NCBI RefSeq assembly: GCF_001418255.1
Contig: NZ_LIPV01000017.1
Location: 1 to 35,539, forward strand
Length of the DNA: 35,539 nt
Direction: 5' to 3'
Source of the DNA: Thiomonas bhubaneswarensis
Lineage (GTDB): Bacteria > Pseudomonadota > Gammaproteobacteria > Burkholderiales > Burkholderiaceae_C
A program made the position numbers and the translations under genes. The notes below the pieces were generated by a model that was not told the DNA's origin, ran no database searches, and was given only the letters and a program-made list of their open reading frames with translations. Below are positions 15,249 through 35,431 of this stretch, piece by piece. Within the stretch, counting starts at the first letter, position 1. Each line of letters begins with the position of its first letter.

Positions 15249-15411
15249 AAATCCCTTGACTCTGGACCTCACTCCAAGGTCTAGAGTGCATCCATCGCGA
15301 TGCGGCAGGTCTTTGTTCACCCGGAGATCATGCCAAGACAGATGGGTGTTCAAACGAAGGAGTTCTGACATGGCAACACAACGTCAGGTTGAAGTTTTCA
15401 GCGCCGGGTGC
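15249..15411 (+). repeat. Direct repeat, copy 1 of 2 (163 bp)
   Basis: This segment recurs at 35268-35431 with only two differences that I can see: A/G in CCCGGAGATC versus CCCGGGGATC, and one extra T in GGGTGTTTC in the second copy. It contains a MerR-type promoter, the 5' leader and the first 14 codons of a thioredoxin-like gene. The copies have the same orientation and enclose about 20 kb. Confidence 0.95.
15256..15287 (+). promoter_or_regulatory. MerR-family promoter/operator, copy 1
   Basis: TTGACT (15256-15261) and TAGAGT (15282-15287) are 20 bp apart, longer than the usual 17 bp, as in MerR-activated promoters. The spacer holds a dyad, ACTCTGGACCT and AGGTCTAGAGT (15259-15269 and 15277-15287, one mismatch) around seven bases. 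It drives the thioredoxin-like gene at 15370. The dyad differs from the one at 18206-18222, so its regulator is probably not the MerR protein in this window. Confidence 0.75.
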
Positions 15412-15609
15412 TGTGCCGGGAGCGGTGTCGACGAAGCCGTGTTGCGCGTGGCCTCGCGGCCAACGCGTCCGGTGCTGAAACGCCTTGCAGCTTCAGTCGA
15501 AAATTTCTTTCCAGAACGATTTTCGGCCCGGCATCGGGCCATAGCGCCCCTGATGTTTGCCACCGCCGTGGTGGTCGCCGTTTTGGCCATGACTTTCAGG
15601 CTGTGGTGA
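15370..15609 (+). pseudogene. Internally deleted thioredoxin-like small protein gene
   Basis: The ATG at 15370 has a good AAGGAG site. The first 14 codons (MATQRQVEVFSAGC) are the start of a small thioredoxin/glutaredoxin-like protein often found behind MerR-type promoters. The copy at 35390 shows the normal continuation GVCE, completing the CxxC. Here the Cys is followed directly by CAGSGVDEAVLR, which resembles the C-terminal end of the same family (CCAGxGxDExxLR, from memory). About 50 middle codons thus appear to be missing while the frame is kept. The open frame continues to 15609 only because it runs antisense over the neighbouring zinc-ribbon gene. The active-site CxxC is lost. Confidence 0.7.
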
Positions 15610-15785
15610 TGGGCGGCTCACTTGCTGTGGTGCGCTGGCCGCCTCCTGTTGGTGGTTTCGCTCGATGATCTTGTCAAGCTCGCCGCGATCGAGCCAAACG
15701 CCGCGGTATTGCGGCAGTCGTCAATTTCAATGCCCTGGCGTTCGGTCATCACCAGGGTACTTTCCTTGCAGACGTGGCATTTCAT
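15493..15785 (-). pseudogene. Frameshifted zinc-ribbon (zf-TFIIB-type) protein gene
   Basis: The ATG at 15785 follows AAGGAGATGCCGTC. The frame reads MKCHVCKESTLVMTERQGIEIDDC and then shifts. Restoring one base at about 15713-15715 gives PQYRGVWLDRGELDKIIERN, the hallmark of the zf-TFIIB zinc-ribbon family, then a His/Gly-rich linker (NGDHHGGGKHQGRYG) and the family-like ending KSFWKEIFD, stop at 15493. The total, 293 bp, is one short of 98 codons, as expected for a single-base loss. The fourth zinc ligand, normally Cys in CPxCRGVWLD, is Tyr here (position 15707). Loss of a ligand as well as frame argues for true decay rather than only a read error. Function of the family is unclear (small zinc-binding proteins). 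Confidence 0.8.
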
Positions 15786-15824
15786 GACGGCATCTCCTTG
15801 TTGTGAAACCATGAACCCAGAACA

Positions 15825-18167
15825 TCAAACCGTTGCACGTCGTAGCGACAGCAGCCGCATGCCGTTGAACACCACCAACAGGCTGGCCCCGGCATCGGCG
15901 AACACCGCCATCCACAGGGTCGCCACGCCGCTCAGGGCCAAGGCGAAGAACACCGCCTTGATGCCCAGCGCTAGGGCGATGTTCTGCTTGAGAATTGCGG
16001 CGGTGCGCCGGCTCAAATGGATGAAGTCGGCGATCTTGCGCGGGTCGTCGTCCATGATGGCGACATCGGCGGTTTCCAGCGCCGTGGCGGTGCCGGCCGC
16101 CCCCATGGCAAAGCCGATGTTCGCGCGCGCCAGCGCCGGCGCATCGTTCACGCCGTCGCCGACCATACCGACCGAACCGTAGCGCGCATGCAGTTCGGCA
16201 ACGGCGGCCTGCTTGTCCTGTGGCAGCAGATTGCCTCGCGCATCGGCGATGCCGAGCTGAGCGGCAATGGCCCTTGCCGTGGCCGGGTTGTCGCCCGTCA
16301 ACATGACCGGCTCGACGCCCAGCCCCTTGAGGGCCGCAACCGCCTGCGCGCTCTCTGGCCTGAGGGTGTCGGCGACGCCGAAAACGGCCACGGGGCCAGC
16401 CGCGTCGCACAACACGATGGCGGTCTTGCCGGCACGCTCCAGCACGGCAAGCTGCGCCTCCAGCGCCGCCGAACAGACCCCGATGTCTTCGGCCAGGCGA
16501 TGATTGCCCAGATGCCAGAGCTGGCCGGTGACGCTGCCCTTAACGCCGCGCCCTTGCAGCACACCAAAATCCTCGACGGGCAGCACTGTGGACCCTGGCT
16601 GCTGCGCGCGCCAGCCGGCAACCAGCGCCTGGGCGACCGGATGCGTGCTGTGGTCGTCGAGGCTGGCGGCGATCCGCAAGGCCTGCGCGATGGTCATGTC
16701 GCCAAGCGGGATCGCATCGGTCAGTGCGGGCTTGCCGCGGGTCAGCGTGCCGGTCTTATCGAGCGCCACGGCTTTGAGCAGACGGCCGCCTTCCAGATGG
16801 ATCCCGCCCTTGACCAGGATGCCATGCCCGGCCGCCGCCGCAAGACCGCTGACCACGGTGACCGGCGTGGAGACCACCAAGGCGCAGGGGCAGGCGATGA
16901 CCAGCATGACCAGGGCCTCGTACAGCCAGGAACTCCAGCCTCCACCACTCAGCAGCGGGCCGAGGATGGCCACGGCGATGGCGAAGACCACCACCGCTGG
17001 GGTGTAGTACCGCGCGAATTGATCGACGAAACGCTGGGTCGGCGCGCGCTGTGACTGCGCGCTCTGAATGGCCAGGGCGATGCGGGCCAAGGTGCTGTCA
17101 CCGGCCGAGGCCGTGACGGAGGCTTCCACCACGCCATCGGCCACAATGCTGCCTGCATACAGCGGGTCGCCCACTTGCTTGTCCACGGGCATGCTTTCCC
17201 CGGTGATCGGCGCTTGGTTTAGCGCCGCGCGGCCGGACACGACGCGCGCGTCCAGCGGCACCCGCGCGCCGGTGCGCACCCGGATGCGACTGCCGACGGC
17301 CACCTCGGCCACCGGCTTGGCCTGCCAGGCCTCGCCAGCCTTGACCTCGGCGGTTTCCGGCGCGATGGCCGTGAGCGACTTAATCGCGTTCCTGGCACGC
17401 TCCAGCGACAGCGCCTCGATCGCCTCGGCCACGGCGAACAGGAACACCACCATCGCCGCCTCCGGCCACTTGCCGAGAGCCACGGCCCCGGTCACCGCGA
17501 TGGACATCAGGAAGTAGATGTTGAGGGTCAGGTTCTTGAGCGCGACCCAGCCCTTTTTGATGGTCGGCAGGCCGGCGCTCACGATGGACACAGCGGCAAG
17601 CGCCATCACCATCGATGAGGTCTCTCGCCCGGTCGACCAGGCGATGGCCTCGGCCGCGACCGCGGCGACGCCAGCCACGGCGAGCAGGCCTTTTTGCCGT
17701 GGGCTCAGGGCCGGGGGAAGTACAGACACCGACGCATTGGCTTCCAGCACATTGGGTGCCATGTCCAGCTTGCTCAGCACTGCAGTAATCTCGTGCGGCT
17801 GCTCCAAACGGTGATACACCGTGAGTTCCCGTTGCAGGAGGTTGAAGTCGAGTTGGACGACCCCGGGCATGACCTCCAGCTTGTTGCGGATCAGGCGCTC
17901 CTCGGTGGGGCAGTCCATCTTGTCGATGCGGTAGCGAACCCGGCTGGTCCCTTCGGGTGCCGGATTGGTTTTGCAAACACCCGTCAGACAGTCGGTCTGT
18001 GTCGCCGGGGCGCAGCAGGCATCGGCCCCCGCGTGGGCATGGATATGCGCATCAGGGCCGTGGTCGTGGCCATGATCCTGCGCATGATCGTGGTCACAGG
18101 TGGGTCCATGGTCTTGCGCCTGGGCAGGCAGGCGTAACGCTGTGCTGATGGGGTCGTGCTGGCTCAT
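15825..18167 (-). CDS. P1B-2-type Zn/Cd/Pb-translocating ATPase
   Basis: A 780-residue inner-membrane P-type ATPase of the CadA/ZntA/PbrA type, exporting divalent soft metals. The N-terminus is His/Asp-rich (CDHDHAQDHGHDHGPDAHIHAHAG) with nearby cysteines (ACCAPATQTDCLTGVC). A heavy-metal-associated domain follows with the ZntA-like MDCPTEE. The membrane metal site is Cys426-Pro-Cys428 in VIACPCALVVSTPV; the phosphorylation site is DKTGTLT; also LITGES-like TGESMPV, THPVAQ (HP motif) and MVGDGVNDAP. The last membrane helix has the P1B-2 Asp (FADAGASLLVV). It is divergent from the MerR regulator at 18256 with a shared operator. Pb versus Cd/Zn preference cannot be told from sequence alone. Confidence 0.92.
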   Translation of the reverse strand: MSQHDPISTALRLPAQAQDHGPTCDHDHAQDHGHDHGPDAHIHAHAGADACCAPATQTDCLTGVCKTNPAPEGTSRVRYRIDKMDCPTEERLIRNKLEVMPGVVQLDFNLLQRELTVYHRLEQPHEITAVLSKLDMAPNVLEANASVSVLPPALSPRQKGLLAVAGVAAVAAEAIAWSTGRETSSMVMALAAVSIVSAGLPTIKKGWVALKNLTLNIYFLMSIAVTGAVALGKWPEAAMVVFLFAVAEAIEALSLERARNAIKSLTAIAPETAEVKAGEAWQAKPVAEVAVGSRIRVRTGARVPLDARVVSGRAALNQAPITGESMPVDKQVGDPLYAGSIVADGVVEASVTASAGDSTLARIALAIQSAQSQRAPTQRFVDQFARYYTPAVVVFAIAVAILGPLLSGGGWSSWLYEALVMLVIACPCALVVSTPVTVVSGLAAAAGHGILVKGGIHLEGGRLLKAVALDKTGTLTRGKPALTDAIPLGDMTIAQALRIAASLDDHSTHPVAQALVAGWRAQQPGSTVLPVEDFGVLQGRGVKGSVTGQLWHLGNHRLAEDIGVCSAALEAQLAVLERAGKTAIVLCDAAGPVAVFGVADTLRPESAQAVAALKGLGVEPVMLTGDNPATARAIAAQLGIADARGNLLPQDKQAAVAELHARYGSVGMVGDGVNDAPALARANIGFAMGAAGTATALETADVAIMDDDPRKIADFIHLSRRTAAILKQNIALALGIKAVFFALALSGVATLWMAVFADAGASLLVVFNGMRLLSLRRATV

Positions 18168-18196
18168 GATGGCGGATCTCGGTGAACAATGCGATC

Positions 18197-18227
18197 ATTG
18201 AACAGCCTGTACCTGCTACAGGGTCAA
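18197..18227 (-). promoter_or_regulatory. MerR-controlled promoter of the P1B-2 ATPase gene
   Basis: Reading on the minus strand, -35 TTGACC (18227-18222) and -10 TTCAAT (18202-18197) are 19 bp apart. Centred in the spacer is a perfect dyad CCTGTA-N5-TACAGG (18206-18222). The over-long spacer and centred dyad are the defining layout of MerR-activated promoters. The adjacent divergent MerR gene is the obvious regulator, and it would also repress itself from here. Confidence 0.85.
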
Positions 18228-18255
18228 GTACCTTTAGACGACAGGGGAATGCAAG

Positions 18256-18726
18256 ATGCGAATCGGGGAATTGGCGCAGCGCGGGCACTGCGACGTGGAG
18301 ACGGTGCGTTTTTACGAACGCGAGGGCTTGCTGGACGCGCCCTCTCGCGAGGGCAACGGCTATCGCAACTACACCAGTGATCACCTGGTGCAACTCAATT
18401 TCATTCGGCACTGCCGCTCGCTGGGCATGGGATTGCCCGACGTGCGCGTATTGCTCAGCTTTCAGGAGCATCCTGAATCGGCGTGCGACGACATCAACCA
18501 GTTGATCGACCGGCAGATCGCGCGCATTCATCATCAGGTCGAATCGCTGCGCTTGCTGGAGCAGCAGTTGCACGCGCTGCGCGAGTCCTGTCAGGTCAAC
18601 CGAACGGCGAGCGCATGCGGCATCCTGCAGAACCTGCGACACGCCGCGGCCGGCGAGCCCTGCGAATGCCATGCGGAACCGGTCAATCGGTCCGGAGCGG
18701 ATCATCCAGGTGGCGTGTCGGTGTGA
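18256..18726 (+). CDS. PbrR/CadR-type MerR-family regulator (Pb/Cd-responsive)
   Basis: 156 residues. The N-terminal winged helix-turn-helix (MRIGELAQRGHCDVETVRFYEREGLL) is followed by a dimerisation coiled coil and a metal-binding end. Cys77, Cys112 and Cys121 have the same spacing as Cys78, Cys113 and Cys122 of PbrR; CadR has a slightly different third spacing. A C-terminal EPCECHAE adds two more Cys and a His, a feature of this subgroup. It would bind the dyad at 18206-18222 and activate the divergent P1B-2 ATPase gene when Pb(II) or Cd(II) binds. Confidence 0.92.
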   Translation: MRIGELAQRGHCDVETVRFYEREGLLDAPSREGNGYRNYTSDHLVQLNFIRHCRSLGMGLPDVRVLLSFQEHPESACDDINQLIDRQIARIHHQVESLRLLEQQLHALRESCQVNRTASACGILQNLRHAAAGEPCECHAEPVNRSGADHPGGVSV

Positions 18727-18750
18727 GCGTAGGCGTCGGTCGGCGAGAGA

Positions 18751-19026: not shown

Positions 19027-20742
19027 ATGAAGAAGCGCAAGTGTCCTTCCATATCTTCCATGTCCGATTCCGGGACGTCCAATGCTCTTTCCACGCTAAC
19101 CGAATCGGGTTTGCAACTGAGCCGACGCCGTTTGATCGGCACAGCCGCGCTGGCGGTCCTCGCCGCCCCCGCGCTGCGCAAAGGCGCGTCCGCCCAAGCC
19201 ATGGGTGGTGGCATGGGCGGAATGATGGGCATGGAGCCTGGCCTGCTCAAACCCGCGACGATGAACGCAGGAGCTTTCACGCGCCCTCTGGCGATTCCCC
19301 CGCAGATCTCCGGTGAGGAGCGCGCCGGTGTGCTCCACTATGCCCTGCGCATGGGTGTCGGCACCAGCGAACTCGTAGCTGGAACGCGCACCCCGACCTG
19401 GGGATACAACGGCCCGCTGCTCGGCCCGGCGTTGCGCGTGCCGCGGGGGCGCGCGGTGCGCATCGCGGTGACCAACAACCTCGACCAGTCGACCACCACG
19501 CATTGGCATGGCGCCCATGTGCCCGGATCGATGGACGGTGGTCCGCAAAGTCTGATCCTTCCCGGTCAAACCTTCGACTATCGCTTCACCCTGGACCCCA
19601 GCCTGGCGCGACGCTCTGGTACCACCCTCGTCCGGAGACGCGCACGGGGGCGCATGCCTATGCCGGGCTGGCCGGGCTACTGCTCATCGATAACGGAGTG
19701 GACGCTCGCCTCGGTCTGCCGTGCACCTGGGGGGGTGGACGACATTCCGGTGATCGTCCAGGATCGGCGCATGGCCGCCGACGGCCGGCTGCTGTACATG
19801 ACCTCGATGATGGATCTCATGGGCATGAAGGGTGACCGCTTTCTGGTCAACGGCCGCGAGCAACCCTATGCCGCGGTGCCGGCGCAACGGGTGCGTCTGC
19901 GTCTGCTGAACGGCTCCAACGCGCGTTTCTACAACTTTGCATTGAGCGATGGGCGCGCGTTCCATGCGATCGCCACCGACGCCGGCCTGCTGGAACGTCC
20001 GGTGGAGATGCGTCGGCTGGTGCTGGCGCCGGGGGAACGCGCCGAAATCTTCGTCGATCTATCCCGCGACCTGGGTAAGACTCTGGTGCTGCGCAGCGAT
20101 TCGGGTGCCGTGGTCCCGGCCCTCAATGGCGCGCCGATGCATACGGATGGCTGGGACCGCAACGGCTTCGATCTGCTTCAGCTTCGGGTCGTTGCGCCAA
20201 ATGCGGCGAAAACCGTGCTGCCGGCACGGATGGCCGAGTACGCCGCGTTGCGGCCCGATGCGCCTGTACGCCGCTTCACCCTGCAGGGCATACGGATGAT
20301 GGGCGGAGGCGACTCGGGAATGATGCGCATGGGTGGCGGCGTGGAGCGCGGCGCCCCGCCCGACTCGGGTCCGGGCCGCATGAGTCTGGGGATCGGCGGC
20401 GCGAGGCTTTTTTCCATCAATGACCAGTTCATGGACATGGCGGTGATCAACCAGCGCGTGCGTCTTGGCAGCAACGAAGTCTGGGAGGTGCGCAACGATG
20501 CGATGATGGCCCATCCGTTCCATTGCCACGGCACCTCGCTTCGCCTCCTGTCGCGCAACAGCGGTGAGGTACCGGAGTGGGAACAGGGCTGGAAGGACAC
20601 CGTCCTCGTGCGCATCAACGAAACCGTCCGGATGGCCGCGCGCTTTACTCAGCCCGCAGACGATGCACATCCCTTCATGTACCACTGCCATATCCTCGAA
20701 CATGAAGGCAACGGCATGATGGGGCAGTTCACCGTAGCGTGA
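19027..20742 (+). CDS. Tat-exported multicopper oxidase (CueO/CumA-like) with compensated double frameshift
   Basis: 571 residues; ATG at 19027 behind AAGGGAGTATCCAA. Tat signal ([21 protein letters not shown]), Met/Gly-rich segment, then three cupredoxin domains. Copper motifs seen: THWHG (~159-162), HPFHCHG and [14 protein letters not shown] at the C-terminus. The second pair is lost: after DYRFTLDP (residue ~191) the frame slips at a C-run (19596-19599, one C short) and returns at a G-run (19729-19735, one G extra). The alternate frame between them reads [28 protein letters not shown] (split here: [11 protein letters not shown], then [17 protein letters not shown]), the expected family sequence, though even there the usual HPH is HPR. 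As written, the type 2/3 copper site is broken. Two sequencing indels or a decayed gene are both possible. Confidence 0.8.
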
Positions 20743-20803
20743 GAAGCGGCGAAGGTTCCGGTCCGCCAGCGTAGCCACCCAATTTAGGAACAAGACGGTC
20801 CCT

Positions 20804-23212
20804 ATGAACACCACCAGCGTCATCGATGTCTCCGGGCTGGTGTCGAGCCTTTCCGCCCGCGGGGTCGAAAAGAAGCTCCGGCGCCTGCCGGGCGTCGCCG
20901 ACGTGCAGGTCAATTACGTCGCGGGCAGCGCCACGGTTGTGTACGACGCGGCCTTGACCAACCTGGCTGCACTGCAGGCGCAGGTCGAGCGTTGCGGCTA
21001 CCACTGCCGCGGCGAGTCGGTTCCCGACCATCTGTGCGAGCCGCGCGAGGAGCATGCCATGGTGCATGCCCAGGGTGCGCACAAGGCTGGAGTGGTGCAT
21101 GGCGGAGCCAGGCTCCAAGGCGCCGAACGCGACGCCCATTCCGGTCGCACGCCCGGAATAGATGCCATGGCGCACGACATGGGCCATGGTGCCGGCATGG
21201 ACGCGCGTGACATGGCGCGAGACATGCGCAACCGGTTCTGGGTATGCCTGTTGTTCACGGTCCCGCTGTTCGTGTACTCGCCCATGGGCGGGCTGTTCGC
21301 ACCGCCGGCGCCGCCGTTCGGTCTCGCGCTCAAGGACTGGCTGTTCGGCCTGGCCAGCGCCGCGGTGATCTATCCGGCCTGGCCGTTTTTCGTCGCAGCG
21401 GCTCGCGCATTGCGCAACGGCGTGCTCAATATGGCGGTGCTGGTCGTGCTCTCCATCGGCACGGGCTATCTGTTCAGCGTCGGCACGACCTTTCTCTTCG
21501 AGGGGGCGCAGTTCTACGAGGCCGTATCGGTGCTGCTGGTGTTCATCCTGCTGGGGCATTGGCTTGAAATGCGCGCCCGCGCCGGTGCCTCCGAGGCGAT
21601 CCGCGCGTTGATGAATCTGGCGCCGCCCAAGGCGACAGTGCTGCGCAACGGTGCGGAAATCACGGTGGCAACCTCCGCGGTGCTGCCGGGCGACGTGGTG
21701 CTCATCCGCCCCGGCGACAAGATTCCGGTGGATGGCGAGGTGCTGGAAGGCGCGTCGCAGGTCGATGAGTCGATGCTGACCGGCGAGTCGATGCCGGTGG
21801 GGAAAAAACCCGGCGACGCGGTGATCGGAGCGACCATCAACAAGAGCGGCAGCTTGCGCTACCGCGCCACCAAGGTGGGCGCCGACACCGCGCTGGCGCA
21901 GATCGTCAAGCTGGTGCAGGAGGCGCAGAACTCCAAGGCGCCGGCGCAATTGCTGGCCGACCGCGCATCGCAATGGCTGGTGGTGATTGCCGTCCTGATC
22001 GGCGTGGCGACCTTCGTCGCCTGGTACGTCATCCTGGGGCAGCCGCTGCTGCTGGCGCTGGCATTGACCATCACCGTGTTCGTCATCGCCTGTCCGGACG
22101 CCCTGGGCCTTGCCACCCCGATGGCCGTGATGGTGGGAACGGGGCTCGGCGCCATGAACGGCATCTTGTTCAAGAACGCCTCCGCGCTGGAGGATGCGAC
22201 CCAGTTGAACGTGGTGGTTTTCGACAAGACCGGCACGCTGACCCTGGGGCGGCCGGAGGTGGTCGACTTGGTCCTGGCCGCCGGCATCGCCGAAGACGAA
22301 CTGCTGAAAACGGCCGGGGCCGTCGAAAAGCTCTCCGAGCATCCACTGGCGCTTGCGATCCTCGAGAGCGCCAAGGGTCTTGCGCTCGAACCCGCCAGCG
22401 CGTTCACCAACATCGACGGCATGGGCGCCCGGGCCGAACTGGGGGGCGAGGTGGTGCTGCTGGGCAACGACAAGCTGATAGCGCTCGACAAGGCCAACAT
22501 GAACGGCCTCGAGGCTGATTCGCAGCGGCTGCAGGGGCAGGGGATGACGGTGGTGCACGTCGCGCGTGCGGGGCGCTTGATGGGTCTCATCGCCATTGCC
22601 GACGCTGTGCGCCCGACCTCCGCGCCCACCGTGGCGGCGCTCCACGCCAGGGGCGTGCAGGTGGCCATGCTGACCGGCGACAACCGGCCGACGGCGGAGC
22701 GCATCGCCCGCGAGATCGGCATCGACATCGTGCTGGCCGACGTGCTGCCCGGCGACAAAGCGGCCAAGATCAGGGAGTTGCAAGGGCAGGGCAAGCGGGT
22801 CGGCATGGTGGGCGACGGCATCAACGATGCACCGGCGCTGACGCAGGCCGACGTCGGCTTCGCCATCGGCGCCGGAACCGATGTGGCGATCGAAAGCGCC
22901 GACGTGGTGCTGATGAAAAGCGATCCGTTCGACGTCGTCGGCGCGATCGTGCTGTCGCACGCCACCCTGCGCAAGATGCATCAGAACCTGTGGTGGGCAG
23001 TGGCCTACAACGTCATTGCGTTTCCAGTGGCCGCAGGGGTGTTCTACCCCTTCACCATCAGTCCCGAAGTGGCGGCGCTCGCCATGTCGGGCAGCTCGGC
23101 GCTGGTGGCAGTCAACGCCCTGATGCTCAAGCGCACCCGGTTGACCGGCATTCGCATCGGCCCGGCCACGAACGCCGTGGCCGGGCCGCAGGTAGCAACA
23201 GCGCAGGCGTGA
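20804..23212 (+). CDS. P1B-type ATPase, Cu-like, with CPD metal motif
   Basis: An 802-residue heavy-metal P-type ATPase. Standard motifs: [20 protein letters not shown] (Asp474), [26 protein letters not shown]. The TM7 YN ([12 protein letters not shown]) and TM8 MSxSS ([10 protein letters not shown]) are those of Cu(I)-exporting P1B-1 pumps. Two features depart from the rule: the TM6 metal site is Cys430-Pro-Asp432 instead of CPC, and the N-terminal HMA-like domain ([23 protein letters not shown]) has no CxxC. A His/Met-rich segment (~residues 75-140, e.g. [16 protein letters not shown]) precedes TM1. I recall similar CPD-type ATPases in other bacteria but no characterised member. It lies between a multicopper oxidase and a DUF302 gene on the same strand, suggesting copper. 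Confidence 0.85.
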
Positions 23213-26991: not shown

Positions 26992-27062
26992 CTGCGTTAC
27001 CTCGCCGGCGCCCCAAGACCGAAGCATACTCTCAATGTAGTTCGCCGAATCTGCCGCGACCA

Positions 27063-27127
27063 TGACAGGACGATGACATCAATGTAATGCCGTGGTCATC
27101 CGCATGAAAGCACACCCTGTCTACGCT
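27063..27127 (+). promoter_or_regulatory. CopR-type site and promoter of copABI
   Basis: TGACA occurs at 27063-27067 and again at 27074-27078, 11 bp apart (one helical turn), as expected for tandem response-regulator sites. The second starts a longer element, TGACATCAATGTAAT then GCCGTGGTCAT (27074-27099), shared in 18 of 26 positions with 18751-18776. A -10-like TACGCT lies at 27122-27127, 34 bp after the TAAT, the same distance as at the other site. The region also contains the copR promoter on the opposite strand. Confidence 0.6.
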
Positions 27128-27168
27128 TCACATTCAAATTTTTCCATTGAACGGGAGCAGCCGAAACC

Positions 27169-28890
27169 ATGCAACGCAATCTCCTCATCCGGCCACAAGG
27201 TGTCCATGTTCAACGGCGGCGCTTCGTGCAAGGGTTGGCTGCTGGCGGCGTCATGCTGGGGCTGGCCCCATGGGCGGCGCACGCGCAAGCGGCGCCCACC
27301 GCAACCGGGACGGCCCCGGAGCTGCGGGGTCGCGAATTCGATCTGACGGTGGCCGAGACTCCGGTCAATTTCACCGGAAAACCTCGGGTCGCGACGACGA
27401 TCAACGGATCGATTCCAGGGCCGACGCTGCGCTGGAAGGAAGGCGACACGGTGACGATTCGTGTGACCAACCGTATGAACCGTTCGACGTCGATCCACTG
27501 GCACGGCATGCTCGTGCCCTTTCAGATGGATGGCGTGCCTGGAATGAGCTTCAAGGGCATCACGCCCGGTGAGACCTTCGTCTATCACTTCAAGGTCCGG
27601 CAGGCCGGCACCTACTGGTACCACTCGCACTCGGGCATGCAGGAGCAAACTGGCATGTACGGCGCCATCATCATCGAGCCCGCGCAGGGCAAGACCATAC
27701 ACGCCGAGACCGATCATGTGGTGCTGTTGTCGGACTGGATGGACGAAGACCCGATGCGCGTCCTGGCCAAGCTCAAGGACGACAGCGGTTTTGACAACTA
27801 CCACGAGCCGACGGCGGTGGACTTCTTCCGCGATGTCTCCCGCGAGGGACTGCGTGCGGCACTCGACAAGCGCGCGATGTGGGAGCAGATGCGCATGAGT
27901 CCGGGCGACCTTTCCGATCTATCGGGCGCCACGCTGACGTATCTCACTAATGGCGTCACCCCTGCCGGCAACTGGTTCGCACCCATCGTGCCGGGCAAGG
28001 TCGCACGACTGCGCTTCATCAATGGCTCGGGTGATACCTTTTACGACGTGCGCATCCCCGGCCTGAAACTCACGGTGGTTGCCGCCGACGGGCAGGACGT
28101 GGAGCCGGTGAGTGTAGACGAGTTCCGCTTCGGCCCTGGGGAAACCTATGACGTGCTGGTGCGCCCCAGAGACGAGGCGTACACGATCTTTGCGCAATCG
28201 ATGGACCGTACCGGATACGCACGCGGCACGCTGGCTGCCCGGCCGGGTCTCGCCGCGCCCGTTCCGCCGATGGACCCACGCCAGCAATTGACCATGGCCG
28301 ACATGATGGGCAACGACATGAGCTCGATGCCGGGAATGGACATGGGAGGGATGAGTATGGACACGGAACCTGCTGTGCGGCACGCGCCGGCCGAATACGG
28401 TCCCGGCGTCGACGCCCGCGTCGACCACCCACGGACAAATCTGGACGATCCTGGCGTGGGCCTGCGCAACAACGGCCGACGCGTCTTGACCCTGGCTGAT
28501 CTGCACACGATCGGTGGCCCGATCGACCCGCGTGCGCCCGGTCGCACGATCGAGATGCATCTGACGGGCAACATGGAGCGCTACACCTGGTCGTTCGACG
28601 GCGTGCCGTTCGGGGAGTCGACACCGGTGCATTTCCGCTATGGCGAGCGCCTGCGCATGGTGTTGGTGAACGACACGATGATGACCCACCCGATGCACAT
28701 GCACGGCATGTGGAGCGAATTGGAGAGCCCGGATGGCCAATTCCAGGTGCGCCGCCACACCATCCCGGTTCAGCCGGCGCAGCAGGTCAGCTACCGCATC
28801 AGCGCCGACGCGCTGGGGCGCTGGGCCTGGCACTGCCATTTGATGATGCACATGGACGCGGGGATGTTCCGCGAGATTCTGGTGTCATGA
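27169..28890 (+). CDS. copA: CopA periplasmic multicopper oxidase
   Basis: A 573-residue CopA-family copper-resistance oxidase, complete. Tat signal (VQRRRFVQGLAAGGVMLGLAP, cut near AHAQA at ~40). All four copper clusters are intact: HWHG (110-113), WYHSHSG (150-156), HPMHMHGMW and WHCHLMMHMDAGMF. A Met-rich insert (DMMGNDMSSMPGMDMGGMSMD, shown in two parts: DMMGNDMSSMP, GMDMGGMSMD) near residues 385-405 is the copper-binding segment typical of CopA. It oxidises Cu(I) to the less toxic Cu(II) in the periplasm and sequesters copper. First gene of copABI, divergent from copRS. Confidence 0.95.
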   Translation: MQRNLLIRPQGVHVQRRRFVQGLAAGGVMLGLAPWAAHAQAAPTATGTAPELRGREFDLTVAETPVNFTGKPRVATTINGSIPGPTLRWKEGDTVTIRVTNRMNRSTSIHWHGMLVPFQMDGVPGMSFKGITPGETFVYHFKVRQAGTYWYHSHSGMQEQTGMYGAIIIEPAQGKTIHAETDHVVLLSDWMDEDPMRVLAKLKDDSGFDNYHEPTAVDFFRDVSREGLRAALDKRAMWEQMRMSPGDLSDLSGATLTYLTNGVTPAGNWFAPIVPGKVARLRFINGSGDTFYDVRIPGLKLTVVAADGQDVEPVSVDEFRFGPGETYDVLVRPRDEAYTIFAQSMDRTGYARGTLAARPGLAAPVPPMDPRQQLTMADMMGNDMSSMPGMDMGGMSMDTEPAVRHAPAEYGPGVDARVDHPRTNLDDPGVGLRNNGRRVLTLADLHTIGGPIDPRAPGRTIEMHLTGNMERYTWSFDGVPFGESTPVHFRYGERLRMVLVNDTMMTHPMHMHGMWSELESPDGQFQVRRHTIPVQPAQQVSYRISADALGRWAWHCHLMMHMDAGMFREILVS

Positions 28891-28917
28891 CCACCGCGGC
28901 CATAGGAGATGAAATCA

Positions 28918-30024
28918 ATGAGACTGCAACACATCAACAAAGCTCTGGCATTGGCGATCGCCGGTCTGGCGATTGCGCCGGTCTGGGCGCAAAGCATGGA
29001 CATGCCAGGGATGAGCATGCCAGGGATGGGATCTCCTGCTGCTTCGGCTTCCTCCCCGGCCGATCACCCCGTTTCGCCGACGAAGGCGCCTGCAATGTCT
29101 GGCGACATGGGCGGCATGAACATGCAGGGAATGGATGCAACCACCCCGTCTTCGTCAAAGGCAATTCCCACGCCCTCTTCAAAGCCCGCGGCAGCGCCGA
29201 ATGACATGAATGGGATGGACATGCCGGGGATGCAGATGCAAGGGACGGGCGCGGCCACGCAGGCGGCGGCTGACGGGAACATGAAGGGGGCGGCTCCCAA
29301 CCAGCCGCGCAGCGCCGATGCGTACTCCGGTGGCTACACGCTGACGACCGGACCCTTTATCCCGCCTGGAGTCAAGCCGCCGCGCCTTGCGGACCAGGAG
29401 AATTTCGGCTCGGTGCTGGTCGATCGCCTGGAGCGCGCCTATACGCGCGACGGCAACTGGAGCGCCTACGACGTGCAGGCCTGGTTCGGCCGCGATTTCA
29501 ACCGCTTGGTGATCAAGGCCGAGGGCGATGTCTCGCAAGGACGCCTGCAGGACGCCCGAACCGAGCTTCTCTGGGGGCACGCGGTTGCCGCGTTCTGGGA
29601 CACGCAGCTCGGTGTGCGTCACGACAACGGCTCCGGACCCGACCGTAACTGGCTGGCGTTCGGGGTGCAGGGCCTGGCACCCTATTGGTTCGATGTCGAG
29701 GCCACAGGCTATTTGGGCAACGCGGGACGCAGCGCGCTGCGTCTGGCGACGAGTTACGACTTGCTGATCACCCAGCGCGTCGTACTGCAGCCGCGCGTTG
29801 AAGCCAACCTGTATGGCAAGGATGATCCGGCGCGTCAAATCGGCAGTGGGCTGTCCGATGCGACCGCCGGGTTGCGCCTGCGCTACGAGTTCACGCGCCA
29901 GTTCGCGCCCTATGTCGGCGTGGAATGGAGCGGGAAATTTGGCCGCAGCGCGGACTACGCGCGCATTGCGGGCGAAAAGACACGCCAGACGGCCATCGTC
30001 GCTGGCTTGCATTTCTGGTTCTGA
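28918..30024 (+). CDS. copB: CopB copper-resistance outer-membrane protein
   Basis: 368 residues from the ATG at 28918; this start is nine bases after AGGAG, while the ATG at 28909 abuts the AGGAG directly. Signal peptide MRLQHINKALALAIAGLAIAPVWAQ, given here as a ~24-residue leader cut at WAQ. A long Met-rich region follows (SMDMPGMSMPGMGS, GGMNMQGM, GMDMPGMQMQG), then the CopB beta-barrel domain (~145-368: LLVDRLERAYTRDGN-like VLVDRLERAY, DVQAWFGRDFNRLVIKAEGD, YVGVEWSGKFG, terminal AGLHFWF). It binds copper and may move it across the outer membrane. It is 27 bp downstream of copA. Confidence 0.93.
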   Translation: MRLQHINKALALAIAGLAIAPVWAQSMDMPGMSMPGMGSPAASASSPADHPVSPTKAPAMSGDMGGMNMQGMDATTPSSSKAIPTPSSKPAAAPNDMNGMDMPGMQMQGTGAATQAAADGNMKGAAPNQPRSADAYSGGYTLTTGPFIPPGVKPPRLADQENFGSVLVDRLERAYTRDGNWSAYDVQAWFGRDFNRLVIKAEGDVSQGRLQDARTELLWGHAVAAFWDTQLGVRHDNGSGPDRNWLAFGVQGLAPYWFDVEATGYLGNAGRSALRLATSYDLLITQRVVLQPRVEANLYGKDDPARQIGSGLSDATAGLRLRYEFTRQFAPYVGVEWSGKFGRSADYARIAGEKTRQTAIVAGLHFWF

Positions 30025-30083
30025 CCCGTTGGTTTTCAACGGATTCGCTGTTGTACTTTTAAGGCTGACGAAAGGATACCCAT

Positions 30084-30737
30084 ATGAAGATGAAGAAAAT
30101 CCGACTGTCCATGCTTCTGCTTGGCGCATGGCCCGTATTTGCGCTTGCCGCCGCGAATGCGTCCGGAGTCGAGAATCCGTCACACGAGGCCACGCCGAAG
30201 CGTGGCGCAAGCGTGTCCTCTGAGGCTGCCGCAATGCCTGGTGCCATGAAGGGCATGAATATGCAAGGTATGAACATGCAGGGCATGGGCATGTCAGGGG
30301 TTGCCGCAAATGCGGCCTCTGCCCCCCACGCATCGGTTCATGCCGACGCGGACGCCGACGCATCTTCCATCGGCAATCCTGGTCAAGCAACGGCCGCCAC
30401 CAAAAACGTGGACATCACGATGGACGACTCGATGCGTTTTACGCCGGATGTCATCCATGTGCAGCCGGGACAAACGATTCGGTTTGTTTTGATCAACCGT
30501 GGCCAAATCAAGCACGAGATGACGATCGGGAGCATGGCCGAGCTCAAGGAGCACGAAAAGATGATGGCGGCTATGCCCGATATGACCGATGGGGCCGAGC
30601 CCAATATGGTCGCCGTACCGCCTGGAAGCAAGGGTGAGCTGATCTGGCGCTTTGGCAAGCCCGGGACCGTCGACTTCGCCTGCACGATGCCCAGGCATAT
30701 GGAAGCTGGCATGGTCGGCAAGATTCTGGTGGAGTGA
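30084..30737 (+). CDS. copI: CopI-like periplasmic cupredoxin
   Basis: 217 residues; ATG after AAAGGATACCCAT. Signal peptide to about residue 23 (ALAAANA), then a Met-rich run (MPGAMKGMNMQG, MNMQGMGMSG), a His/Asp-rich linker (HASVHADADADA) and a C-terminal cupredoxin domain (108-217). Type 1 copper ligands are visible: His144 (KHEM), Cys200, His205 and Met210 in FACTMPRHMEAGM, the normal C-x4-H-x4-M spacing. CopI-type proteins protect the periplasm from Cu(I), possibly passing electrons or copper to CopA. Third gene of the copABI unit. Confidence 0.9.
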   Translation: MKMKKIRLSMLLLGAWPVFALAAANASGVENPSHEATPKRGASVSSEAAAMPGAMKGMNMQGMNMQGMGMSGVAANAASAPHASVHADADADASSIGNPGQATAATKNVDITMDDSMRFTPDVIHVQPGQTIRFVLINRGQIKHEMTIGSMAELKEHEKMMAAMPDMTDGAEPNMVAVPPGSKGELIWRFGKPGTVDFACTMPRHMEAGMVGKILVE

Positions 30738-30970
30738 GCGCTCCACATGAAGTGGCAGGGGTGGCACCCGGCAACAGCGGCTTGGCGTTCTCAAAAATCT
30801 TGCTTGAGTGTCGCCTTCTACCGCTTCGCGCCGCGCCTCCCGCCGCCAAGCAGGGCCGATTGCCCGCGAAAATCGCCTCCATTTCGACGCCGCGGGCCGG
30901 ATGCCTCCGTCCGGCACCTCAGCCTGCAAGGGATGATGGGCCAGTTCGCCGTGGCCTGATCAGGGACTGT
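30738..30970. other. Spacer with a multicopper-oxidase C-terminal remnant
   Basis: 233 bp between convergent copI and the tlpA-like gene. Bases 30930-30959 on the plus strand read GMMGQFAVA-stop, almost the same as the last residues of the oxidase ending at 20742 (GMMGQFTVA-stop), so this is probably the tail of a deleted multicopper oxidase. A dyad GCCGGA-N8-TCCGGC lies at 30896-30915 without a T-run. The rest shows nothing recognisable. Confidence 0.45.
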
Positions 30971-31576
30971 TCAGCGCATCAGGGCCTCGATGACCTGCCG
31001 AATCGCAGGGCTGTCGTAATCCCGCCCGCCGACGGCCTGCCGGACGATCATGCCATTCTTGTCGACCAGATAGGTCGTCGGAATGCCCATCACACCGAAG
31101 GCATGCGCCGCCTCGCTGTGCTGGTCCAGCAACACCGGGAAGGTGGGTGATGGATTGAGCTGGCCCATGTAGGCGAAAACGTTGTTCAGGGTCTCGCCCT
31201 GGTCCAGCGCCAGCACCTCGAAGGGGCGGCCCTTCATCGCCAGGTAAAGCCTTTCGATGGACGGCATTTCCTGCCGGCACGGAGGGCACCAGGTGGCCCA
31301 GAAGTTGACCAGCACCACCTTGCCGCGGTAATCGGCCAGGCGGTGGGTCTTGCCGTTGATGTCCTGCAAGCTGAATGCCGGCGCCGGGCGTGGCGGCTCC
31401 ACCACCGCGAGCGCGTGGTCCTGCGCCGGGTCGGCGGCGCGTGCGGCGCGCGCCGCGCCAACGGCCAGCAGCCCGGCGCCGCCGAGCCAGGACAGCACCT
31501 GGCGGCGCTCAGGGTTGATCAGGCGTGGCCCCCGCGCATTGCGGTCCGGCCAATGTGGCTTGGTGTTGCGTTCCAT
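30971..31576 (-). CDS. TlpA-like periplasmic thioredoxin
   Basis: 201 residues; ATG at 31576 after TGGAGAGAGC. The N-terminus holds a twin-arginine-like membrane or signal segment (NPERRQVLSWLGGAGLLAVGAARAARA), then an AhpC-TSA/Redoxin thioredoxin fold with the active site WCPPC (Cys97, Cys100), the cis-Pro in GIPTTYLVDKNG, and a normal length. It would reduce or isomerise disulfides, or metallate partners, in the periplasm using electrons from the DsbD-like membrane protein of the same operon. Its first 68 bases overlap the end of the upstream gene in another frame. It is the last gene of the minus-strand redox operon. Confidence 0.9.
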   Translation of the reverse strand: MERNTKPHWPDRNARGPRLINPERRQVLSWLGGAGLLAVGAARAARAADPAQDHALAVVEPPRPAPAFSLQDINGKTHRLADYRGKVVLVNFWATWCPPCRQEMPSIERLYLAMKGRPFEVLALDQGETLNNVFAYMGQLNPSPTFPVLLDQHSEAAHAFGVMGIPTTYLVDKNGMIVRQAVGGRDYDSPAIRQVIEALMR

Positions 31577-32081
31577 GCTCTCTCCAGAAAAAAATCAGTT
31601 TGAACCGCGCGCCGCGCGGCAAGTCGACGGTGGTGAACCCCTGGGCCCAATCCCCGGGCTGCAGGGTTTGCTGCGCCGGCAGGACCGACCAGTCCGAACG
31701 CACGCCCAGTGGCTGCCAGCGGTGCAGCCACTGGGTTTTGGTGATCAGCGGGTGCCCCTTGCCATCCGGGGTCACGGCCTTCCAGGCGGCCACGTCATAG
31801 GTGATAGGAACCTTGGCGTTGTTCCGGATCGAGGTTCCGAACACGCAGACCCGGGCAATGGCATCGATGGCCTTGGATGGATAGCCCATGTTCTCGTAGA
31901 AGGCGCGCACACTGTCTGGGCTGAGCTGGATCAACTGCACGGTGAAAGCGTGCCTGGCGTTCGTCCACGACGGTTGCGCCGCACTCGCCGCTGCGGCCGG
32001 GGCGGCATCCGCAGCCAAGGCGCCGGGCGGAAGCACGGCACAGGCAAGTACGACGAGCAAGGGAAAAACACGACCATCCAT
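31509..32081 (-). CDS. Unknown exported protein in the thiol-redox operon
   Basis: 190 residues. Signal peptide MDGRVFPLLVVLACAVLPPGALAADA is split here as MDGRVFPLLVVLACAVLPPG then ALAADA. An Ala-rich linker leads into a folded part with repeated aromatic and Trp-containing stretches (WLHRWQPLGVRSDWSVLP, PGDWAQGFTTVDLPRGARFKLIFFWREHG), which reads like a beta-rich domain. One Cys is central (IARVCVFGTSIRNN) and one near the end (GPQCAGA). The last 68 bases overlap the tlpA-like gene. No family is recognised. Operon position suggests a periplasmic partner of the TlpA/DsbD system. Confidence 0.75.
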   Translation of the reverse strand: MDGRVFPLLVVLACAVLPPGALAADAAPAAAASAAQPSWTNARHAFTVQLIQLSPDSVRAFYENMGYPSKAIDAIARVCVFGTSIRNNAKVPITYDVAAWKAVTPDGKGHPLITKTQWLHRWQPLGVRSDWSVLPAQQTLQPGDWAQGFTTVDLPRGARFKLIFFWREHGTQHQATLAGPQCAGATPDQP

Positions 32082-32150
32082 CGTTCAACTCCGTAAGAAA
32101 AACGCGAGCGGGGCCCGCTCTACGGGCGGAAAAGCGCTGAAGCGATGAGA

Positions 32151-32645
32151 TTATTGGGTCGTCGCAACGATCGTTGCCGGTGGAAGGCATAGCCCTTTGT
32201 CGGCGCAAGCCTGGATTTGCACCTGTATGCGGACATCGCGCAGCCTTGACAGACCTGGCAGAGCGATGCGTGTACCGTTCTCGTAGACCCGTATGGTCTT
32301 GCCGTTGATATGTAGGCCGATGTCTTGACCGGGTGGATAGAGAGGTTGGATCGCTAACGTACGGCCACTGCGTTGCGCGACCACCGTGACAGGAATCAAG
32401 TAGGGCGCCGACGGCGGATTGGCGTAGACATGCCAACCCGCGTCAATGTGCAGCGTCACCACCGCATTGGGGCCATTGATCGCGGCACTGGCACCAACCT
32501 TGGCGGAGGAATCGACCAGATCGCCGGCAGCAGCCGGGGTCAAGCCAGGGTCGGGATACGCGGCATGGAACAGCAAGGCAGCGCCGATCAAGACGGTCAG
32601 GGCAATGAGCGAGACGGCGGCCATGCGCCGGAGTTTTGGTTTCAT
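32151..32645 (-). CDS. Stand-alone DsbD alpha-type (DsbC-like) domain protein
   Basis: 164 residues from the ATG at 32645, five bases after AAGGAA. An N-terminal hydrophobic segment (MAAVSLIALTVLIGAALLF) anchors or exports it. The rest matches the N-terminal immunoglobulin-like domain of DsbD: AGWHVYANPPSAPYLIPVTV, then ACADKGLCLPP with Cys147 and Cys153, the C-x5-C pair equivalent to Cys103/Cys109 of E. coli DsbD-alpha. In most bacteria this domain is fused to the membrane part; here it is a separate gene 10 bp downstream of the one encoding the rest. It would pass electrons from the membrane core to periplasmic thiol proteins. Confidence 0.85.
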   Translation of the reverse strand: MKPKLRRMAAVSLIALTVLIGAALLFHAAYPDPGLTPAAAGDLVDSSAKVGASAAINGPNAVVTLHIDAGWHVYANPPSAPYLIPVTVVAQRSGRTLAIQPLYPPGQDIGLHINGKTIRVYENGTRIALPGLSRLRDVRIQVQIQACADKGLCLPPATIVATTQ

Positions 32646-32655
32646 CGAAATTCCT

Positions 32656-33828
32656 TTATGGTTGGATGGCATTCAAACCTCGGACGAGCGCATCGGCCGA
32701 GAACAGTCCGGAAAGATGGCCGATCTCTCGCCCATGTGGATTCAATATCGCCACGAACGGCAGGCCAGCCCCGCCGTAGGCGGCAAGGAGACTTTGCAGT
32801 TCTGGGTTCGGGCGGGTTAGGTCAACCTGCAAGGGAACGACACCGCGGGTGCGCAGGGCTTGCACAACGCGCGCGTCGCCATAGACGGTTTGCTCCAGAA
32901 ACCTGCAGTTCAGGCACCACTGTGCGGTGAATTCGACCAGCGCAGGGCGATGCAGATTGACAATCTCGGCGATTTGTGTTGCCTCAAGCGGCTGCCAAGG
33001 GATGCCCTGCGATGGGACGGGCCAGATCCCTGCACTCAGATAAACCAAAGCCAGTGCGGGCAAGCTCGAAAGTGGCGCGGCCCAGCGCGAGGCGCGATCT
33101 GTGGCGCGAAGGCTCGTTGCGAGTACCCACAACATCATCCCAGCAAGAAATGCGAACCATAGCGCCTTGTCCACGCTGGCGGGAAACAGACTTTGCGCGA
33201 AAAAAATCGCGGCGCCGGCAAGCAGCCAGCCGAAGCTTTGACGCACGATATCAGTCCAAGCCCCTCCACGTGGCAGCCGATCGAGAAGTCCGGGCTTCAG
33301 AAGCAGAATGGCGTAGGGCAGAGCCATGCCAAGACCAATCGCGATGAATATCATCACGATGTCGACAGTTGGCCGGGTGAGGGCAAACACAAGGATCCCA
33401 CCCAGCAAGGGGCCGGTACAGGGCGTCGACAAAAGGGCACTGACCAGGCCGGAGACCAGCGGCTCGGCGAAACGCCCACCTCCCATTCTCGCGATGATGG
33501 GAGGAATCGGCAAACTGCGCCCCGTGAAATTCATCACCGCCATCACCAGCAGGATGATGACCAGGCCGATCAGCACGGCTCGCGATTGGAACAGCACGCC
33601 CCATTGAAGATGCAGGAGAGCTGTTGCCAGCCCCAGGGGTGTGAAAAACAACAGGGACCCCGCAGCGAACAGACCGGCGGACAAAGCACGTGTCGCCGGC
33701 TTTGCACCGGCGGCGCGCAGGATGGTGCGAACCTTGATTGGAATGACCGGCAGCACGCATGGCGTCAGGTTGAGCAGCATGCCTGCGCCGACCGCGAGGA
33801 GGACTTCGAGGATGAGTGAGATGTCCAT
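32656..33828 (-). CDS. DsbD-like thiol:disulfide interchange protein lacking the alpha domain
   Basis: 390 residues; ATG at 33828 after AAAGGACC, preferred over a TTG at 33846. Eight membrane helices of the CcdA/DsbD-beta type with the two membrane cysteines in NLTPCVLPVIPIK and LLSTPCTGPLLGG, then a C-terminal thioredoxin-like gamma domain with WCLNC (EFTAQWCLNCRF). It carries reducing power from cytoplasmic thioredoxin across the membrane. The missing alpha domain is encoded by the next gene. The layout is like ScsB/DsbD systems linked to copper tolerance. It starts 14 bp after the ResA-like gene. Confidence 0.9.
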   Translation of the reverse strand: MDISLILEVLLAVGAGMLLNLTPCVLPVIPIKVRTILRAAGAKPATRALSAGLFAAGSLLFFTPLGLATALLHLQWGVLFQSRAVLIGLVIILLVMAVMNFTGRSLPIPPIIARMGGGRFAEPLVSGLVSALLSTPCTGPLLGGILVFALTRPTVDIVMIFIAIGLGMALPYAILLLKPGLLDRLPRGGAWTDIVRQSFGWLLAGAAIFFAQSLFPASVDKALWFAFLAGMMLWVLATSLRATDRASRWAAPLSSLPALALVYLSAGIWPVPSQGIPWQPLEATQIAEIVNLHRPALVEFTAQWCLNCRFLEQTVYGDARVVQALRTRGVVPLQVDLTRPNPELQSLLAAYGGAGLPFVAILNPHGREIGHLSGLFSADALVRGLNAIQP

Positions 33829-33842
33829 GGGGCTTGGTCCTT

Positions 33843-34343
33843 TCAAGCGTTTTTAGCCAGTTCGTGCTGGATCAGTCGATCAAGCTCGGGAAAGTCGGGT
33901 TCGCCGAGAATTCGCTTGACGACGTTCCCTTGCTTGTCGACCAGAAACGTGGTCGGCGTCAGGCGGACGTCGTAGAACTCGCGTGCCAGGTGGCCATCCG
34001 CGTCCTTGGCAACCTTGAACGGTAAATGCCGGGTCGAGGTGTAGTCGGTCACATAAGACAGCGGGTCATAGCTCATATCCACCGCGATGAACTCGAAATT
34101 CCTTCCCTCGAATCGCTCGTACGTCTTGACCATTTGGGGCATTTCCTTGATGCAGGTAGCGCAGCTCGTGGCCCAGAAATTCACCAGATAGACCTGGCCT
34201 CGCAGGGAAGAGGTCGAAAGGGTTCTTCCAGTCAGCAGCACAAACGTCGCCTGCGGGACAGCCGGCTTCCTGGCCAGGACAAAATAGGCCATGCCGGCCA
34301 TGACGAACGCCACAGTGGCGGCAATTGTGAAACGCACACGCAT
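33843..34343 (-). CDS. ResA/TlpA-like membrane-anchored thioredoxin
   Basis: 166 residues with an N-terminal signal anchor (FTIAATVAFVMAGMAYFVLA) and a TlpA-type thioredoxin fold. The active site is SCATC (Cys61, Cys64) in VNFWATSCATCIKEMP, with Ser where Trp is usual (WCxxC). The cis-Pro loop is present (RLTPTTFLVDKQGN). It is the first gene of the five-gene minus-strand redox operon; the stop lies 14 bp from the DsbD-like start. Likely role: periplasmic reductase or thiol donor for copper-loaded or oxidised proteins. Confidence 0.9.
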   Translation of the reverse strand: MRVRFTIAATVAFVMAGMAYFVLARKPAVPQATFVLLTGRTLSTSSLRGQVYLVNFWATSCATCIKEMPQMVKTYERFEGRNFEFIAVDMSYDPLSYVTDYTSTRHLPFKVAKDADGHLAREFYDVRLTPTTFLVDKQGNVVKRILGEPDFPELDRLIQHELAKNA

Positions 34344-34531
34344 GATTTCACCTCGATCGATGTTTTCAAGAAGGCTGTGGTGATCGGCTCGCCCAGTTTC
34401 ATCGCGGAACGATGCTCTCGGACCGGGTCCGGAGGCTGGTCGTTGGGACGAGCCGGGGACAGAGGGCGACCTCGCAGATTGACCTGCTGCCGCAGCGCTG
34501 AGGCCGGACGAATGCCGGCTTTGAGGGGTGA

Positions 34532-34945
34532 TCAGACCCTGGGCGGGTGATAAGGGGCGTCAGGCGCCGCACTGGCGACGAAGCGTGTGTGGAATTGCGG
34601 CATGGAAGCTGCGTTCTGTACAAAGTGCCAAGCGAATGGCGCGGAAGCCGTCGCTAAAGCGATACCGCAGGGGACGGGGCAAAGGGCATGTCCGGCTACC
34701 GGGTGGCCCAGGCGGCCGTCCGGCCTCACTTCACGGCTGCGTTCAAAGGAATCGAGGGGATGCTGTGACTGTTGCAGGTCTGTGGCCGACAAGTCTGCGT
34801 GCGATGCCCCCATTAAAGCTTGATCTCGTCCGGGGCAGTGACTCAGCATGGCCGTGAACGTCGTGGCATCGCCCATAGCGGCCCAGCCTTGCAGCGGCAG
34901 CAACGCCAGCAGGACGGTGAGCAGGACGACACGCAAGGTGTTCAT
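34532..34945 (-). CDS. Small exported Cys-containing protein, unknown
   Basis: 137 residues starting MNTLRVVLLTVLLALLPLQGWAA, a strong signal peptide given here in two parts (MNTLRVVLLTVLLALLPLQG, WAA). The mature part has cysteines at SHCPGRD and ALCPVPCGIAL, and a Pro-rich end (APDAPYHPPRV). The layout resembles small periplasmic proteins that accompany RND metal pumps, and in design the 6811-7248 protein. It is 188 bp upstream of the redox operon on the same strand. No ribosome site is obvious. Function is unknown. Confidence 0.6.
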   Translation of the reverse strand: MNTLRVVLLTVLLALLPLQGWAAMGDATTFTAMLSHCPGRDQALMGASHADLSATDLQQSQHPLDSFERSREVRPDGRLGHPVAGHALCPVPCGIALATASAPFAWHFVQNAASMPQFHTRFVASAAPDAPYHPPRV

Positions 34946-35267
34946 GCAATCAGGCTATTGAGAAAAGCAAGGGGATATAAGCGAGCGTCATCATGCAAAT
35001 CGATATTTGAGTCCTGCATGCCTGCCGGAGTTCCAGCAAAAATTGGTTATGGTGCTGCCCTCGTCACGCAGGCGGCTGCGAACATGCGTGCGACGCACCA
35101 CAGCGCATACCGATCCTATTCGATTCAGAGAGGAATTTCTGTGTAAACTTTTTAGGGTGGCATGCTTTGCCCAAACTGCCGCAAAGGCATGACGTCGGCC
35201 GAAAAGTTTCTGTCACTTCGGCGATGAAAATGAAGGCAGTCATCCCGAAGATGAACAGCACGCCAAA
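34946..35267. other. Gene-poor spacer before repeat copy 2
   Basis: About 320 bp. A possible 21-codon frame (plus, 35162-35227) reads MLCPNCRKGMTSAEKFLSLRR with a CxxC, split here as MLCPNCRKGM and TSAEKFLSLRR; on the minus strand a hydrophobic stretch (FFGVLFIFGMTAFIFIAE) is open. Neither is complete or supported enough to call a gene. No promoter or terminator is clear. Confidence 0.3.
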
Positions 35268-35431
35268 AAATCCCTTGACTCTGGACCTCACTCCAAGGTC
35301 TAGAGTGCATCCATCGCGATGCGGCAGGTCTTTGTTCACCCGGGGATCATGCCAAGACAGATGGGTGTTTCAAACGAAGGAGTTCTGACATGGCAACACA
35401 ACGTCAGGTTGAAGTTTTCAGCGCCGGGTGC
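35268..35431 (+). repeat. Direct repeat, copy 2 of 2 (164 bp)
   Basis: Nearly identical to 15249-15411 (two differences seen). The copies share promoter, leader and 14 codons, then diverge: this copy continues with the normal GVCE codons, the first jumps to a C-terminal-like sequence. Confidence 0.95.
35275..35306 (+). promoter_or_regulatory. MerR-family promoter/operator, copy 2
   Basis: TTGACT (35275-35280) and TAGAGT (35301-35306), 20 bp apart, with the same 11-7-11 dyad (35278-35306) as copy 1. It drives the truncated thioredoxin-like gene at 35390. Confidence 0.75.

Follow-up and report, generated by a model that had tools for sequence, protein, structure and literature searches.

In this DNA, 20 kb of metal-resistance genes are flanked by two near-identical direct repeats of 163 bp. 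These do not look like the ends of a 20-kb mobile unit; one appears to be the original start of a gene and the other a recent, broken copy of that start, left where the DNA was rearranged. We put a probability of roughly three in four on the reading that the right-hand repeat (copy 2) is the start of a thioredoxin-fold gene in its original place and that the left-hand repeat (copy 1) is a partial, decayed duplicate at a rearrangement junction within a composite metal island. The window, by which we mean the whole stretch analysed, is an entire contig (C17) of 35539 bases from a genome of 3.2 Mb in 23 contigs. Its main features are collected in the table.

Features of the window around and between the two repeats
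Feature	Position	Strand	Basis or remark
Left flank of copy 1, 98 bases	15151..15248		no source found among genomes searched
Copy 1, first piece: promoter 15256-15287, leader, 14 codons, ATG 15370	15249..15411	+	sequence comparison
Fusion ORF, 79 codons: gene head, near-tail, filler, antisense of zinc-ribbon gene	15370..15609	+	
Copy 1, second piece: codon 69 to about 82, after the deletion	15403..15452	+	joined at GCCGGNTGC
Filler between gene fragment and block, about 30 bases	15453..15481	+	31-mer search
Zinc-ribbon gene at left block edge	15493..15785	-	frameshifted here, open in 3As and T. delicata
P1B-type ATPase, Zn/Cd/Pb-like	15825..18167	-	ATPase-IB_hvy, 542 bits (cut-off 346)
MerR-family regulator, CadR/PbrR-like	18256..18726	+	TIGR02047, 148.4 bits, just under cut-off 151.45
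CueO-like multicopper oxidase	19027..20742	+	PRK10965, 333 bits, under cut-off 525
Copper-type P1B ATPase, CPD motif	20804..23212	+	TIGR01511, 598 bits (cut-off 397)
Two-component pair, copA-copB-cupredoxin, divergent redox (TlpA/DsbD-like) operon, copy 2	24930..35444		3As locus B order
Copy 2: original gene start, ATG 35390, cut at 35444	35268..35444	+	3As context
IS256-family element, first 95 bases; contig ends inside	35445..35539		identical to C5:288088-288182

The repeats and the gene they come from

The two copies lie on the same strand with their starts 20019 bases apart, and the stretch of copy 2 that copy 1 shares runs from 35268 to 35431. Aligned, they are identical in 162 of 164 columns, the exceptions being one substitution and one 1-base gap, with exact runs of 76, 23 and 63 bases; similarity of this kind is far above chance (E 1.7e-77). 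Each contains a TTGACT-N20-TAGAGT promoter (at 35275-35306 in copy 2), which we take to be of the MerR type, followed by a leader and the first 14 codons of a small gene. What sets the right-hand limit of the shared stretch is the deletion in copy 1 and not the insertion in copy 2; copy 2 itself extends a further 13 bases. A search of the whole 3.2-Mb genome returned these two places and no third, and the 163 bp are present in only 3 of the 100 genomes searched, counting their own; we therefore reject a dispersed repeat.

Copy 2 is interrupted by an insertion sequence whose remainder opens another contig, C5, where a transposase at C5:2-1249 matches NF033543 at 398 bits against a cut-off of 150. 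The nine bases TGTGTGAAG at 35436-35444 occur again at C5:1303-1311 as a target duplication. IS256-family elements usually duplicate 8-9 bp of target, and the transposase together with the 9-bp duplication places the element in that family; its inverted ends, judged by eye, are likewise similar, and nothing notable differs. Because TGTGTGAAG flanks the insertion on either side, C17 can be paired with the beginning of C5. Two right ends of the element occur in the 827 kb of own sequence compared; the other of them, at the end of C6, is flanked by different sequence. From gene continuity and the target duplication, both taken from the assembly rather than from reads, we infer with good support that the insertion sequence bridges C17 and C5. 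There is a second copy of the element at the ends of C5 and C6; it apparently sits within a terminator-like palindrome and has no perfect target duplication. A composite transposon was considered and rejected, as the element stands at the right only and no copy was found left of the block within the window.

The remainder of the gene and its operon (C5:1303-2986) is 92-93% identical to both Thiomonas sp. 3As and T. delicata DSM 16361. To the left of copy 2 lies the redox operon, as in 3As, with window positions 31403-35444 matching at 91% over 4 kb. In T. delicata, 298 bases of the copy-2 left flank match at 92%, but only 121 bases to the left of the repeat remain next to the gene; the redox operon of this species is inverted and lies elsewhere within the same 60 kb. 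Copy 2 thus stands in its 3As context on both sides, and copy 1 alone is misplaced.

The intact gene encodes 88 aa with a thioredoxin fold and is present once each in 3As (G006) and T. delicata (G044); the 3As product matches Thioredoxin_3 (PF13192) at 35.8 bits. No intact copy was found in the own assembly. A 409-bp query of promoter and gene matched 85 of 399 family genomes, themselves a draw from a larger group, and six did so at E <1e-17 (the own genome, G006, G044, G299, G364 and G315); the remaining 79 matches were left out as short and weak. A scan of named genomes gave at least 8 loci. The TTGAC-N20-TA spacing recurs in 3As, in T. delicata and at two of five more distant loci examined (Sulfuritalea MAGs, L073 and L074), and was not found at the other three (L075, L076 and L077). 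Downstream of the gene remainder on C5 there follow a MerR-family gene (C5:1598-2023; ZntR-like, under cut-off), a small thioredoxin-like gene and a DsbD/ArsG-like membrane gene, and by DNA match the MerR, thioredoxin and DsbD-like genes also follow in 3As and T. delicata. The locus therefore resembles the MerR-regulated thioredoxin-fold sets of 3As, T. delicata and the Sulfuritalea MAGs in its promoter spacing, but differs from those of 3As and T. delicata in two ways: an insertion sequence interrupts its first gene, and a second, broken start of that gene is present 20 kb away.

Copy 1 and its junctions

Copy 1 consists of the promoter and two pieces of one gene, fused to unrelated flanks. 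Its first piece is identical to 3As in 155 and to T. delicata in 154 of 166 columns. After codon 14 there is an in-frame internal deletion of 162 bp (54 codons) bordered by 9-bp GCCGGNTGC repeats; in both 3As and T. delicata the spacing of these repeats is 162 bp. The deletion removes the second cysteine of the CxxC motif, presumably the active site. The earlier note had described two same-orientation, near-identical copies with two differences, each holding a MerR-type promoter and the first 14 codons of a thioredoxin-like gene, the left one with an internal deletion and the right one cut by foreign DNA; all of this is borne out, with exact coordinates, and the many dispersed copies that it named as contrary evidence were not seen.

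The pairwise differences suggest when the duplication occurred. Between the two copies there are 2 differences in 164 columns. Against the relatives, over 166 columns, copy 1 shows 11 differences from 3As and 12 from T. delicata, and copy 2 shows 9 and 10. On these counts the duplication would postdate the separation of this lineage from 3As and T. delicata, although gene conversion between the copies could lend an older duplication the same appearance. The second piece lends recency no support, since its last 43 bases are equally near to 3As and to the own C5 (41 of 43 identical in each case; 40 of 43 for T. delicata).

Neither flank of copy 1 has a recognisable source. On the right, a search with the 31-mer at 15453-15483, allowing up to 3 mismatches, gave no further match in the own genome, in 3As or in T. 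delicata. On the left, positions 15140-15262 match only themselves and one metagenome-assembled genome, MAG REEB268, among five genomes searched that included the own genome, 3As, T. delicata and G005. The left flanks of copies 1 and 2 show no detectable homology, with 99 of 500 shuffles scoring equally high, and a DNA hairpin at the copy-1 junction is not supported (z -0.53).

MAG REEB268 matches the window from 4949 to 15740 with 3 mismatches in 10792 bases, and contains the filler 31-mer once. The possibility that copy 1 is an assembly artefact was rejected because both of its junctions are present in this separate record, though not necessarily a separate sample. The REEB268 contig ends at window position 15740, just inside the block; copy 2 was not found in the bin and the rest of the block gave only matches of 84% or less, which may reflect incomplete binning. 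At position 4949, between a serine recombinase gene and a cation-efflux gene, REEB268 and the window part sharply, and this point reads as a strain-variable left edge of the metal region. A literature search by name found no mention of MAG REEB268, and a search of titles and abstract openings found no description of the copy-1 junction.

The 79-codon fusion ORF that results from these joins is likewise open in REEB268 and is probably accidental. It is conceivable that the unchanged MerR-type promoter of copy 1 still responds to metal and drives both the chimeric peptide, which has a hydrophobic stretch, and antisense transcription of the zinc-ribbon and ATPase genes, so capturing metal-responsive control of the ATPase, but we consider this very improbable.

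The block and its island setting

The gene content that the earlier note gave for the block holds for the genes scanned, the copS/copR-like pair and copB being confirmed by family matches. The zinc-ribbon gene at the left edge matches Zn_ribbon_TFIIB in its 3As form (74.3 bits). For the left ATPase the best model is PRK11033, at 570 bits and under its cut-off of 1005. The membrane motif of copper-type P1B ATPases is usually CPC; the copper-type ATPase of the block, with CPD in its place, is about 90-92% identical to a 3As relative at one locus (locus A) and 64% to another at a second (locus B). No counterpart of the multicopper oxidase (19027-20742) turned up in the stretches compared, two from 3As and one from T. 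delicata.

Comparison with these relatives breaks the block into parts. At 3As locus B, near 3.01-3.04 Mb, the window stretches 35444-31403, 31184-24930 and 18680-15482 follow in the same order at 91-93% identity (91% for 31403-35444 and 93% for 24930-31184) and cover 13.5 of the 20.2 kb. At locus A, near 1.95-1.98 Mb and so about 1 Mb from locus B, are found matches of 81-95% to 20757-24629 and to the RND operon and CusF gene that lie left of the block in the window (6831-15150). The left ATPase (15849-18811, 90%) and a section of the redox operon (32169-34196, 84%) also have relatives there, and thus at both 3As loci. As pieces of the block match two separate 3As loci, the 20 kb are not one unit but a mosaic, as is the window. 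At locus A some 22 kb contain the RND operon together with relatives of both ATPases, and the RND operon/ATPase neighbourhood in the window may therefore be old. T. delicata holds 15482-18680, 24930-31184 and 31403-35155 at 89-91%, partly inverted relative to 3As. Both relatives have a single, intact copy of the gene, and neither has a gene fragment at the edge equivalent to 15482; beyond that far end, 3As locus B carries an ORF with a transposase domain (DUF772). Among plasmids, 35 records contain relatives of the block and none covers 80% of it.

These comparisons bear on the larger claims of the earlier note. That the repeats bound the block is contradicted by locus B, where 13.5 of the 20.2 kb stand with one gene copy and no fragment at the far end. 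Relatives carrying the block without the repeats, which the note had named as evidence against itself, do exist for about two thirds of the block. Of its proposal that the block was made or inserted by duplication or recombination at this gene, the duplication of the gene stands; that the block arose from the gene, was inserted at it or is bounded by it does not.

The window probably lies in a larger composite, conjugative metal island. Metal genes, namely the RND operon and cation efflux, are also present left of copy 1, and conjugation genes begin on C5 1.9 kb past the insertion breakpoint: beyond C5:2986, trbL, trbJ and trbE score above their curated cut-offs and trbI, trbG and trbF below. 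Further along C5 are a MobA-type relaxase, a TraG-type coupling protein and a tyrosine integrase (C5:46751-48001), so that type IV secretion genes, relaxase, coupling protein and integrase, the components of a conjugative integrative element, are all found on C5, which is joined to the window by inference. The integrase lies 263 bases from the 3′ end of guaA (C5:48264-49868), a possible island boundary. A 27-mer from the guaA end has a single occurrence in the own genome even when 3 mismatches are allowed, the 827 kb of own sequence compared gave no second long match that could serve as a second att site, and no tRNA that might mark an island end was found in C5:1-60000.

Three further observations were made to the left of the block. 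A 117-base tandem duplication (8813-9046, the units 81% alike) in the RND adaptor gene doubles a His/Met-rich motif, and 3As locus A matches both units. Genes for an XhoI-type restriction endonuclease (364 bits), an Eco57I-type methylase and a serine recombinase occupy 1672-4740 on the minus strand. The contig opens (1-588) in an ORF with an HTH_21 domain, which we assume to be IS3-type transposase-like and which seemingly cuts a long minus-strand ORF.

Composite metal islands are described for Thiomonas, as the ThGEI series of 3As and RGP19/ICE19 of CB2, and trb genes are reported there on islands (PMC2829063; PMC4589449). The present region resembles them in its mosaic metal content, its insertion sequences, its combination of tra/trb and metal genes and its strain-variable gene order. 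ICE19 is described as bounded by 49-bp repeats, with circularisation shown by PCR (PMC4589449). Whereas the repeats of ICE19 are thus the ends of an element that was seen to circularise, those described here are an internal partial gene duplicate.

Origin of the repeats and its meaning

In the explanation that we favour, the 5′ part of the gene would have been copied to the left edge of the block after the split from 3As and T. delicata. Copy 1 is perhaps the junction of a transient head-to-tail duplication, or of the block in circular form, with later loss of most of that intermediate; the orientation of copy 1 and its position at the very edge of the block fit either. Slippage between the 9-bp repeats would then have taken 54 codons, including those of the CxxC motif, from copy 1, and separately an IS256-family element would have cut copy 2. 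With copy 1 decayed and copy 2 cut by the insertion sequence, no intact copy of the gene is left in the assembly. We infer the step of duplication followed by deletion; no other trace of a second block copy was found, and the copy-1 left flank shares no homology with that of copy 2. A tentative alternative is that the block was never duplicated and that break repair placed a copy of about 200 to 370 bases of the gene start straight into the RND/ATPase junction. Only a piece of the gene is present on the left, one of its junctions carries filler of the kind that end joining can leave, and no trace of a larger duplicate was found. Ectopic copying of so short a piece accounts for the pattern almost as well as the route through a duplication or circle, although it fails to explain why copy 1 sits exactly at the block edge in head-to-tail placement.

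That the 20-kb block was inserted or amplified at the gene as a unit by homologous recombination, for instance by a single crossover of a circle, with the repeats as its true ends, is unlikely. The direct orientation, the near identity of the copies and the contact of copy 1 with the very edge of the block would all be expected. However, a single crossover should split the original flanks between the two copies, whereas copy 2 keeps the 3As context on both sides; copy 1 stops within the gene, with filler after it; the block is a mosaic whose parts match two 3As loci; and in 3As and T. delicata about two thirds of the block are present beside a single copy of the gene. Still more improbable, to the point that we give it hardly any weight, is that the repeats are site-specific (att) repeats of an integrative element. 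The conjugation genes and tyrosine integrase on C5 could be cited in its favour, as could the direct repeats reported at Thiomonas islands (10 to 112 bp, PMC2829063; 49 bp, PMC4589449). The present repeat is nevertheless a promoter and coding start inside an island, and no integrase was recognised beside either copy among the ORFs scanned: the tyrosine integrase lies about 47 kb along C5, and a serine recombinase lies 10 kb to the left of copy 1. We reject the repeats as att sites or outer ends of the island, because metal genes continue to the left of copy 1 and the operon and conjugation genes to the right of copy 2.

An original gene start and a partial, misplaced duplicate of it represent a kind of event that is already known, and the present case is a fairly ordinary instance. 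It illustrates how a metal island of this group can be assembled, with pieces that match two loci of a relative fused together and one gene partly duplicated and then broken twice by different means. It also cautions against assuming that a resistance block ends at the near-identical repeats on either side of it. Judging from the sequence, loss of the 20 kb by recombination between the 163-bp repeats is possible in principle, and if they do recombine, the strain could lose much of its complement of copper genes in a single step.
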